Shown: piece by piece, positions 25,186 through 51,008 of the stretch
Layout of the letters: each line of letters opens with the position of its first letter
Numbering within the stretch: position 1 is the stretch's first letter
From: Natrinema halophilum
Lineage (GTDB): Archaea > Halobacteriota > Halobacteria > Halobacteriales > Natrialbaceae
NCBI RefSeq assembly: GCF_013402815.2
Contig: NZ_CP058601.1
Span: forward strand, 3,038,001 to 3,102,000
Reading direction: 5' to 3'
Length of the DNA: 64,000 nucleotides
The notes under the pieces: model-generated
What the model saw: only the letters and a program-made list of their open reading frames with translations
Databases searched by the model: none
Told to the model about the DNA's origin: nothing
Program-made: the position numbers and the translations under genes

Positions 25186-26160
25186 ATGTCTGACGATCGG
25201 TCCGCCGCGAGCACGGGTCGCCGAGGGCGCGTCACTCGCCGAGAGGCCCTCGCTGCAATCGGCGGTGCGGCCCTTGCAACCCCGCTCCGACCCGGTGTCG
25301 ATACCGATAGCACCGGTACTACGGCGACTGACCCCCTCCCGAATGGGCCAGTTCGGATTCGCGTGTATCCCAGTTTCGTTCCACTTCAGGCACGGTTACG
25401 ATACGGGCTCGGTGAACTGCGCGGAAACTGGCCGCCGCCGTTCCGAGACGCGCTGGCTGCCATCGAATCCGCGTTCGAGCAAGTGATTGCGTACGCCCGC
25501 GAGCGCTCTCGCCTCGAGGATCTCGAGGTTCGTGTCGACCGCGGAGCCCCCGTTCTCTTTTCACTCCCGTCGATCCCGTCATCGGTCGATTCCGTTCTCC
25601 CGTCTCTCGAGGCCCTCCTCGAACGCTTTCGCGAACGGTTACGGGAGCGAGATGCGCCCGTCAGGCGGACCTGTCACGTCCTTTTGCGGTGGGCGCCGCT
25701 CAATTATCGCGTCGGGTACGGCGGGACGGTGGCACCGAACTCGATGACTGGCTCGGATGCCGGTGACACCGGCGCACAGACGGTCGCGAACGTCGGCGCA
25801 ACCGAATTCTGGGATTCGAGAGCGGTCACACGGAACATGGTGATCCACGAGACGCTCCATACGTTCCTCGAAGACGATATCGTTCACTCGGTCGGCGATA
25901 CGTACTGCGATCACGAACTCGGGGTTGCCGTCCGGACGGCCGATGATACCCTGCAAATTTCTCCGATCGCGACCGCTTACGCTGGTCCGGATCGGATCGG
26001 CGGGGGGACGCGCTTTCACGGCACCGGCTGTTACGATCACGACCGATTCGCCCGTCACGATGGAACCGAGGGGATCGAAAACTGGGTCTACACGACGGAA
26101 CTCAGTGAGGCGACGTGCGAAGCCGTGACTCGTTTTCTCGAGCACCGATTCGCGGGCTAA
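25186..26160 (+). CDS. Tat-exported protein with HExxH metallopeptidase-like motif
   Basis: 324 residues. A twin-arginine signal (TRREALAAIGGAALATPL, residues 17-34) marks it for export. The mature part has a central HETLH at residues 221-225 followed by a DHE at 242-244, the layout of a zinc metallopeptidase (H, H and a third ligand close by), and an LQISPIATAYAGPDR stretch. The protein is related by motif order to the signal-less protein at 49713-51008, in which the first His is Gln. Substrate unknown. The ATG at 25186 follows a TATAAT-like sequence at about 25150-25155, which fits a short-leader transcript; the open frame upstream is not protein-like. Confidence 0.7.
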   Translation: MSDDRSAASTGRRGRVTRREALAAIGGAALATPLRPGVDTDSTGTTATDPLPNGPVRIRVYPSFVPLQARLRYGLGELRGNWPPPFRDALAAIESAFEQVIAYARERSRLEDLEVRVDRGAPVLFSLPSIPSSVDSVLPSLEALLERFRERLRERDAPVRRTCHVLLRWAPLNYRVGYGGTVAPNSMTGSDAGDTGAQTVANVGATEFWDSRAVTRNMVIHETLHTFLEDDIVHSVGDTYCDHELGVAVRTADDTLQISPIATAYAGPDRIGGGTRFHGTGCYDHDRFARHDGTEGIENWVYTTELSEATCEAVTRFLEHRFAG

Positions 26161-48607: not shown

Positions 48608-49212
48608 GGGTCGGCGCCTGCGCTCGTCTGGACGCATTCGATATACGAGGGAGTCGGCAGAACGGCGGTGAGTTGGTGCATTTGCGGCCAGGTATTCTCT
48701 GCGCCCGATATGGAGCTTTCGATATCTGAAGGGGCTGTATGTCCCGTCGAACGAACGAACGCCAGCAAACTCAACCGGGTTAGTCGGGGATGGCGGGTCG
48801 GCTGCCGAAACGGCGATCCCTCTTTACGTGCTTCTGGTCACAAAGTGCAGCGACGACGGGAGAGCGGTCACGTCTCGAGTCGGTTTCAGTCGACCAGCGG
48901 CGGGTTTCGCCCGTATCGTCGACTCTGGCGACGCATGTGGTTCGTCGTCAGCGGTTAGTGGACCGATTCCGAGTCTGGGATTTACCAATGCGGAGTCCAT
49001 CGCCCAGATTCGAATCGCTCTCGGCCCGTCTCAGCAACGTCACTCATCGAGCACAGCGCCGACGCCGGCCGATTCGGACTGCGTTTTCGAGGGATACCGA
49101 ATCGAACGGACGGTAGTTTCACATATATATCCATTATTATTTTCATTATTAAATAATGTTATTGTAGTTTCATACACAAATATTAAAACATTTTGTAGTG
49201 TAATGCCGTAGC
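48608..49212. other. Intergenic region without a recognised gene
   Basis: About 600 bases. Open frames here are arginine/serine-rich shadow-type frames with no family resemblance. From about 49110 to 49200 it is AT-rich and probably holds the promoter of the Tat protein gene that starts at 49213. Confidence 0.5.
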
Positions 49213-49716
49213 ATGGTAGAGGATGACGCTCAAGTTACCGGTATCGAGGAAGTGAGCCAGGTCTCGGTTTCACGCCGCCGAATGTTACAGGCGAGCACGA
49301 CGACGATCGGCGGAGTAGGGATCGCCAGCAATGCGAGCGCACACGGGGGCTCAGACCCGTGCGAACAGGTGGTACCGGACCTCGCAATCGTCAATCGGGA
49401 CGACCAGCCCCGTTCCGTCGAAGTGGCGACGGAAAACGACGATGCGGCACCGATGCACGGTCATCGGACGATGCGGATCGAACCGGGCGACACTCGGACG
49501 ATCGACGCCATCTCGTCGGCGGTCGAAGAAGACCGCGTCCATGCGATGGTCGACGAAGACGAGACGGTCGTTCAGGAACTGGCTGCACTCCGTCCCGAAC
49601 GGTTCCGACACGGAATCCAGATCACGATCCACTCGGGCGAGACCCGCGTGGAAACCCAACACGCCGACTTGCCCCCAGTCGAGCAAGCACGGATGCTCGC
49701 GAGGTGCGAGGAATGA
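49213..49716 (+). CDS. Small Tat-exported protein coupled to the PKD/PPC protein
   Basis: 167 residues. A Tat signal VSRRRMLQASTTTIGGVGIASNASA (residues 19-43) is followed by an Asp/Glu-rich domain with no match to a known family that I recognise. The gene's stop overlaps the start of the next gene by 4 bases (ATGA). Since the next protein has extracellular-type domains but no signal of its own, the two may be exported or work together. Function unknown. Confidence 0.75.
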   Translation: MVEDDAQVTGIEEVSQVSVSRRRMLQASTTTIGGVGIASNASAHGGSDPCEQVVPDLAIVNRDDQPRSVEVATENDDAAPMHGHRTMRIEPGDTRTIDAISSAVEEDRVHAMVDEDETVVQELAALRPERFRHGIQITIHSGETRVETQHADLPPVEQARMLARCEE

Positions 49717-51008
49717 GTGCTATTTCCGTCTACGTGTATCCAAACACGCGATCCGAAGACGATCTCGCGAGGATCGCAAAGAACGCAGTGGAGGCCGGTC
49801 TCGAGGGTATTACTTCGGACTCGAGGATCGGCGGGTACGACGTCGAGATCCGTAACAGGTATCCGAACCAGCGGGCAGGGAGTTTGCGTGGCTTCTTCGA
49901 CGCTTTTCGAACCTGGCGGGAACGGAACGGGTTTACCGGTACCGGCTGTCACCTCGGCATCGGTAGCGGCTTTGGCGGCGGCCTCGCAGATAACGGGCAG
50001 TATTCGAACGCGTTTAACGGGGACGCCAACTGCGTCGTTGGTGGCCGATCCGGCGGCGGAAGTTTCTTCAAAAACGCCGCGATTCAGGAGACGTTGCATA
50101 CGTTGATCGATCCCGGCCTTCCACAGGTTTCTCAGATGATCGGGCAGAACGACGAACACACCCTGGGAATGATTTATCAGGATCGGTCCGTTTCTCCGAT
50201 GGTCACCGGATACGTGCGGCGGGGACTCGGGAATTCGGGGACCTGTAGAAATAACCTGAATGCGGGCCAGCGGACCACGAATACGTCCCCGTGTTCTGCG
50301 GACGCCGTGGAATACACCTGGATCGATCGCACCGGCGGCCGCGACGGTGGCGACGGAGGCGGCAATGACAGGGGCGGCAACGATGAAGGCGGCGACGGAA
50401 CCCGGGGCCCCTCCGTGGACGTCAGGGTCAGCGCCACAGAAGTGGACGTCGGCGAAACGATCCAGTTCGACGGCCGCAGATCGTCTGATCCCGACGGTTC
50501 GATCCAGTCCTACGAGTGGTCGTTCGGCGATGGTTCGACTGCAACGGGAGGGACTGTTCAGCACGCCTACGAATCGCCGGGCGACTTTCAGGCTTCGCTC
50601 ACTGTTACGGACGACGACGGATTCACCGACACGGGATCGTTTTCGATCACCGTCCAGGGCAGCAGGACGGCCGGAAACTGCGGTGACGTGAGCACTGGGG
50701 GCGAAGTAACCGGCCGTCTCGCCGGCTGGTGGGACGGGAACAAGTATCAGTACGCGAGCGCGCTCGCGAATCCATGCGAGGTGACGATCACGATGGAGGG
50801 GCCAGGCGACGCCGACTTCGATCTGTACGTCACGACCGATGGGCGGACGCCACGGTCCAACAACTACGACGAAAAATCGGACGATCCGAACAGTCGGGAG
50901 TCGGTTACGGTCAGCAACGTAACCCCGGGCCAGCAGTTCGGCATCCTCGTCGACTCCTATAGTGGAGCCGGTTCCTTCCGGCTCAGTGTAACGGAACGCG
51001 GCACGTAA
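49713..51008 (+). CDS. Metallopeptidase-like protein with PKD and PPC domains
   Basis: 431 residues. The N-terminal 210 residues match in motif order the Tat protein at 25186-26160: CHLGIGSGFGGG, QETLHT at 125-130 (in place of HETLH), NDEHTLG near 146-152 and VSPMVTGY. Then a Gly/Asp linker, a PKD domain (GETIQFDGRRSSDPDGS ... YEWSFGDGSTA, about 250-300) and a PPC-type beta domain (DADFDLYVTTDGRTP, to the end). No signal peptide is seen at ATG 49713, although the domains are typical of secreted proteins. With the first His replaced by Gln, catalysis is doubtful. Confidence 0.75.
   Translation: MSAISVYVYPNTRSEDDLARIAKNAVEAGLEGITSDSRIGGYDVEIRNRYPNQRAGSLRGFFDAFRTWRERNGFTGTGCHLGIGSGFGGGLADNGQYSNAFNGDANCVVGGRSGGGSFFKNAAIQETLHTLIDPGLPQVSQMIGQNDEHTLGMIYQDRSVSPMVTGYVRRGLGNSGTCRNNLNAGQRTTNTSPCSADAVEYTWIDRTGGRDGGDGGGNDRGGNDEGGDGTRGPSVDVRVSATEVDVGETIQFDGRRSSDPDGSIQSYEWSFGDGSTATGGTVQHAYESPGDFQASLTVTDDDGFTDTGSFSITVQGSRTAGNCGDVSTGGEVTGRLAGWWDGNKYQYASALANPCEVTITMEGPGDADFDLYVTTDGRTPRSNNYDEKSDDPNSRESVTVSNVTPGQQFGILVDSYSGAGSFRLSVTERGT

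Follow-up and report, generated by a model that had tools for sequence, protein, structure and literature searches.

Whether, and by which route, a protein leaves the cell when it bears domains typical of exported proteins but has no export signal is the question raised by two overlapping genes in the window, by which we mean the whole stretch of 64,000 nucleotides that was analysed. The start codon of this protein (ORF B) overlaps the stop codon of a small Tat-signal protein (ORF A). The features of the locus are listed below.

49120..49212, + strand: AT-rich stretch 5' of ORF A, candidate promoter region (by eye)
49213..49716, + strand: ORF A, 167 aa, proposed Tat carrier (from the sequence; TIGR01409 below cutoff)
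49213..49344, + strand: twin-arginine signal region of ORF A, residues 1-44, with SVSRRRMLQASTTTIGGVGIASNASA
49713..49716, + strand: ATGA overlap, the stop of ORF A and the start of ORF B (from the sequence; also in G030 and G032)
49713..51008, + strand: ORF B, 431 aa, signal-less, with predicted metzincin-fold domain, linker, PKD domain and PPC-like tail
49713..50327, + strand: predicted metzincin-fold domain, residues 1-205 (AlphaFold2 model, Foldseek, VIA-align)
50085..50099, + strand: QETLH, residues 125-129, in which Gln takes the place of the first His of the zincin motif (alignment of relatives)
50328..50408, + strand: Gly/Asp-rich linker, residues 206-232 (from the sequence)
50409..50654, + strand: PKD domain, residues 233-314 (PF18911)
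50670..51005, + strand: PPC-like C-terminal domain (PF04151 under cutoff; similar tails on Tat-signal proteins of the genome)

The initial annotation described a signal-less protein overlapping a Tat-signal gene, and this description was borne out. The ATG of ORF B overlaps the TGA of ORF A (ATGA), with an identical 4-nt overlap in G030 and G032, and the N-terminus of ORF B has no hydrophobic segment and no export signal of any kind. A signal missed upstream, in another start, was rejected: the in-frame extension is hydrophilic (best 13-residue Kyte-Doolittle mean -0.28), and in G030 and G032, which have the same architecture, such a signal is ruled out because the open frame starts just two codons 5' of the equivalent ATG. 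The overlap suggests translational coupling of the two ORFs. The pair is followed by what we take to be thiE- and thiM-like genes and preceded by a presumably transporter-like, divergent gene (by eye), so the neighbourhood gives no functional hint. Its gene content and acidic proteins point to a haloarchaeal host.

ORF A consists of a twin-arginine signal and a mature part of about 120 residues. It contains SVSRRRMLQ followed by an uncharged stretch and was accepted by the rule of this analysis (RR motif plus hydrophobic stretch), whereas TIGR01409 scored 13.3 bits, below its curated cutoff of 16.7. The mature part is probably a beta-sandwich, judging from a model with eight strands and low confidence (pLDDT 58.6). 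A fold search with this low-confidence model returned generic beta-sandwiches, none at E <= 0.001, and Pfam gave only FixG_C (Ig-like; E 0.045, under cutoff) and one weaker match.

Regarding ORF B, the PKD domain named in the initial annotation was confirmed (PKD_4, PF18911; E 8.9e-23, 80.6 bits against a curated cutoff of 27), the PPC domain was only weakly matched (PF04151; E 5.7e-4, with 21.1 bits falling short of the 25.9 cutoff), and the N-terminal domain of 205 residues had been overlooked. Pfam found nothing in residues 1-205, and the tyrosinase copper domain was absent among the Pfam matches of ORF B. The AlphaFold2 model of these residues, based on a 40-row alignment, had a mean pLDDT of 95.2 and a pTM of 0.92. 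Foldseek returned ADAM33 as the best match (E 3.0e-4), and VIA-align superposed the model on the Bacteroides fragilis metalloproteinase 4on1 (Z 13.6, rmsd 2.8, 162 residues), ADAM33 (1r55, Z 12.8) and archaemetzincin (2x7m, Z 12.2), with rmsd values of 2.8-3.2 over the three. Residues 1-205 of ORF B thus have a predicted metzincin fold. The modelled domain begins at residue 1, with its first strand at residue 4 and no propeptide.

At the sequence level this metzincin-like domain lacks a convincing Pfam or NCBIfam family match. None of the 40 rows of the metzincin alignment matched an NCBIfam peptidase family at E 0.1, Pfam gave weak matches only (e.g. SprT-like, E 0.046), and a profile search of solved structures returned a few weak snake venom metalloproteinase matches (best E 0.0043) amid unrelated weak ones.

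Twelve aligned members have H80, E126, H129, H149, G152, P162, Y167 and C178 in common (window numbering). The zinc motif is HExxH in most relatives, versus QETLH in the window; ORF B does not show HExxHxxGxxH, since the motif reads QETLH and the next conserved His lies 20 residues on. The canonical form occurs in the carrier-linked L200 (HELVHLYGAQH) and in the distant own-signal relatives L228 (HEVGHTLGLRH), L229 and L231. SPMVTGY in ORF B has a similar stretch (SPM-Y) in relatives, and this conserved stretch may be the Met-turn. Gln replaces the first His in 10 of 42 rows, all of them signal-less (10 of 26 signal-less rows); the best tree places four such changes, one of which is forced by well-supported branches. 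QExxH was also seen in the signal-less L154, L158 and L159, and the own-signal L090 has MExxH. In L161, L162 and L163, HNxxH replaces HExxH, another way of losing the usual active site. Because its metal site is altered by the Gln, ORF B is probably not a normal protease, and a role in binding or as an altered enzyme is more likely; the proteins that keep HExxH beside a carrier in many related genomes are probably peptidases.

Relatives of residues 1-205 were present in 28 of the 125 genomes of the family. Class-wide, the two metzincin profiles A1 and A2 matched in 86 and 95 of 391 genomes, respectively. In a phylum-level search 14 of 294 genomes matched, all 14 of one order; absence outside this order is only suggested, because the share of the 294 genomes lying outside it is not shown. 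The window domain had no relative in a set of named genomes. A paralogue of the domain lies in the same window at 25186..26160 (+), with a start chosen by hand; it has a Tat signal of its own (VTRREALAAIGG) and an intact HETLHT, making it a candidate secreted peptidase without a family name.

To count pairings, a carrier was defined as a same-strand ORF with an RR motif plus an uncharged hydrophobic stretch and with its near edge between -30 and +15 nt relative to the gene. By this rule a carrier was found beside 24 of the 30 intact signal-less genes and beside 0 of the 59 unique relatives that bear a Tat signal themselves. Fisher's test gives p 1.8e-16 for this difference, which is not a true probability because the sequences are related, some of them nearly alike. 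Near relatives among the 24 (L097-L099, L102/L103 and L158/L159) are likewise not independent. The loose adjacency background in the window was 6 of 51 greedy ORFs. The carrier was located upstream of the cargo in 12 pairs and downstream in 12; L097-L099, which have upstream carriers, also have a downstream Tat lipoprotein.

The starts of the 30 signal-less genes were chosen by hand (GTG in L088, L101, L153 and L158), and L087, L089, L096, L107, L163, L164, L166, L168 and L169 were excluded as broken or partial. In L101 an RR was flagged inside the first strand and judged to be no signal. The own-signal set comprised only A1 matches of at least 130 bits with duplicates merged; L067, L068, L073 and L075 left it for want of a signal. 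Outside both counts were L090, L155, L092, L093, L100, L108, L109 and L200-L232.

The six genes without an accepted carrier were inspected individually by eye. L156 and L160 adjoin an RR-bearing ORF that the rule did not accept, L105 and L161 lie near an ORF that resembles a carrier but has a disrupted frame or signal, and in L106 the carrier runs off the contig. For L167, which is only distantly related (18.9 bits), no carrier was found. Cargo or carrier is interrupted by frameshifts or stops in L087, L089, L096, L105, L161, L163, L164, L166 and L207, and these broken pairs look as if they reflect either a fast turnover of modules or assembly errors.

Beyond the 30, the same rule found no carrier for the signal-less L067, L068, L073, L075, L092, L226 and probably L093, the last being unsure since an RR was flagged late in its N-terminus. 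All seven have an intact HExxH, and L067, L068, L073 and L075 belong to the own-signal branch. The outlying proteins may stay in the cytoplasm, may be decayed, or may rely on a carrier encoded at another locus. L226 is one of seven weak loci; of the others, L227-L231 each encode a protein with a Tat signal of its own, beside which the rule accepted no carrier, and L232 is broken and lies beside a Tat ORF. In a looser listing, L226 and four of L227-L231 also had RR-bearing ORFs nearby, but out of frame, and these were not taken as carriers. With these outsiders added, the counts become 24 of 37 signal-less versus 0 of 66 own-signal relatives (the latter including L155, L090 and L227-L231). A carrier is therefore usual in the group of the window, and no law for every signal-less relative.

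By their sequences the carriers are of at least two types. The long type, present in most pairs, has about 200 mature residues, often ending like NHGxLxV. The short type, that of the window, scored highly in the window, G030, G032 and G403 only (391 genomes), and hhalign did not establish homology between the two types (probability 2.8%). Other Tat proteins serve as putative carriers in L095, L165 and L097-L099.

A search of the class with the long carrier matched in 281 of 391 genomes, mostly by short matches covering little beyond the signal. All 18 matches of at least 90 bits lay beside a gene of the family (broken in L087 and L096); 15 of these 18 had built the profile. A fairer carrier-first test was read from 11 weaker matches (loci L200-L210). 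Six of them (L200, L201, L202, L203, L206 and L207) adjoin a same-strand signal-less ORF with HExxH or QExxH, with an overlap of 1-17 nt (depending on the start) or a 2 nt gap. None of these six cargo ORFs was matched by profiles A1 and A2 at E 10. Five of the six pairs pass the pairing rule, and in L207 the carrier frame is broken. The match in L204 lies beside a divergent metzincin-like gene; no such neighbour was found in L205, L208, L209 and L210. The 21 loci searched for weak matches to the short carrier (E 3.4e-9 at best) contained no metzincin match, and four of the five loci viewed encode Tat lipoproteins. In L074, L097, L098, L099, L101, L204 and L206 the pair has a further lipoprotein gene behind it or close by, mostly one with an RR signal; such a lipoprotein could anchor the complex at the membrane.

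Other observations bear on the location of ORF B. C178 and C194 are invariant in all 16 signal-less rows, and C178 in all 40 rows. PKD/PPC tails like that of ORF B were looked for elsewhere in the genome; of 19 other matches to ORF B seven were examined, representing six distinct genes, each of which encodes a Tat signal. In G032 and G030 the pair is preceded by a gene (L102 573-2324, +; L103 484-2223, -) for a Tat-signal protein with beta-propeller-like repeats, and in the L011/L102 region the end of the repeat protein bears the same PKD and PPC-like tail as ORF B. This common tail suggests tail shuffling.

We consider it likely that ORF A carries the folded ORF B out of the cell through the Tat pathway (co-export, or "hitchhiking"). 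ORF B would fold in the cytoplasm without a targeting signal of its own, the products of the overlapping genes would bind one another, and the twin-arginine signal of ORF A would direct the A-B complex, already folded, through the Tat translocase. Once outside the cell, ORF B would probably attach to a surface or polymer by its PKD and PPC-like domains. Hitch-hiker export had already been proposed in the initial annotation; the proposal was strengthened by the pairing counts and by the occurrence of either gene order, and is weakened by the signal-less relatives that are carrier-less, by the Tat score of ORF A below its cutoff, by carrier types with no established homology and by the frequency of overlapping genes in prokaryotes, and A-B binding, co-export, outside location and function are still what we infer. 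It is conceivable, and in our opinion rather doubtful, that the pair belongs to a widespread archaeal system in which metzincin families ceded signal and prodomain to a Tat protein acting in trans as chaperone, lock and ticket. The carrier would silence the protease inside, escort it and release it outside, carrier and signal would have been swapped several times, and some cargo, such as that of the window, would have lost catalysis and kept binding.

Could the Tat protein instead be an exported inhibitor, trans-propeptide or immunity partner, with the metzincin exiting otherwise or on lysis? Metzincins usually need a prodomain, and the domain of ORF B starts at its first strand; the carrier modelled, with low confidence, as a beta-sandwich also fits an inhibitor. 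However, the pair is kept where the first His is Gln, where inhibition seems pointless, and no carrier stands beside the 59 own-signal relatives, where an inhibitor would still be useful, so that we regard this as unlikely. Because the window cargo has the Gln yet keeps its carrier, silencing a protease is hardly the only task of the carrier here; a trans-propeptide role is possible in the pairs with HExxH. It also seems quite improbable that ORF B is cytoplasmic, its PKD and PPC-like domains being no proof of export and its neighbour an operon partner with another task. The missing signal of ORF B and the carrier-less signal-less relatives agree with such a location, as does, by weak analogy, MelD2, which according to the available excerpt of PMC2758597 stays inside and whose MelC-like helper lacks a Tat signal. 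Against it stand the recurrent pairing with Tat proteins, the relatives in which this domain has a signal of its own, the conservation of both Cys residues, and the presence of Tat signals in all six further tail-bearing genes that were examined.

Two further explanations derive both ORFs from a single protein. Gene fission, the alternative offered in the initial annotation, would have split one Tat protein into ORF A (signal and first domain) and ORF B (remainder). The ATGA overlap and the existence of own-signal forms would suit this. In the own-signal relatives that were read, however, the metzincin domain directly follows the Tat signal, without an ORF A-like domain, and simple ancestral fission was rejected for this reason; the downstream carrier in 12 of 24 pairs and the different carrier types also argue against it, leaving it highly improbable. 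Fused versions were looked for, and the nearest are L155 and L090, two carrier-less proteins of the signal-less clade that have a Tat signal of their own; in them the fusion is confined to a signal. A rare frameshift at the overlap, by which A and B would be fused into one Tat-signal protein, has hardly any probability: the frames do overlap, but no slippery run was seen at the junction (by eye), and fusion could not put the signal first where the carrier follows the cargo, as in half of the 24 pairs.

The tree of 40 rows showed a clean split of signal-less and own-signal rows. When L155 and L090 were added, well-supported branches required a minimum of three changes between own signal and carrier, the placement of these two being unsure because both are long branches. 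The clade of the window protein consists of the window, G403, G030 and G032 (support 98/94), which coincides exactly with the distribution of the short carrier at high score.

If co-export by ORF A is true, predicted secretomes miss a family of extracellular metzincins, because signal-less proteins are normally scored as cytoplasmic. The pairs would then be a candidate archaeal example of Tat hitchhiking with a peptidase fold as cargo, and a natural set of many Tat hitchhiker pairs, in both orders and with several carrier types, for study of the carrier-cargo interface. The analysis also links an unnamed protein family with the metzincins. In the open-access literature, as far as its text was available, no report was found of Tat hitchhiking of metzincins, nor of such a pair in haloarchaea or other archaea.

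In predicted fold, residues 1-205 of ORF B resemble the adamalysins/ADAMs, the fragilysin family and archaemetzincin; unlike these metzincins, the window protein has neither HExxHxxGxxH nor a propeptide, and no convincing sequence family match. As to export, the available part of PMC4273604 describes E. coli PaoABC and hydrogenase-2 HybOC, in which a Tat-signal subunit carries signal-less subunits; unlike the pair described here, these are cofactor enzymes without a peptidase fold, and their carriers are functional subunits of the enzyme. The FAD glucose dehydrogenase of Burkholderia cepacia similarly has a small Tat-signal partner beside the cargo subunit, the gamma subunit (168 aa) being needed for folding and secretion of the catalytic alpha subunit (PMC6719666, as far as the text was available). 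It is, however, a redox enzyme with FAD and an iron-sulfur cluster, and gamma has five helices, whereas the model of ORF A is mostly strands. The closest mechanism, by analogy and on the portion of PMC2758597 at hand, is that of Streptomyces MelC1/MelC2, in which the tyrosinase cargo is secreted by hitchhiking on its helper. There, too, a small Tat-signal helper lies beside a signal-less metalloprotein, with the helper gene first, and in one species the helper stop overlaps the cargo start. MelC2 is a copper tyrosinase of a bacterium, whereas the pairs described here combine a predicted metzincin fold, probably archaeal genomes, both gene orders and several carrier types.
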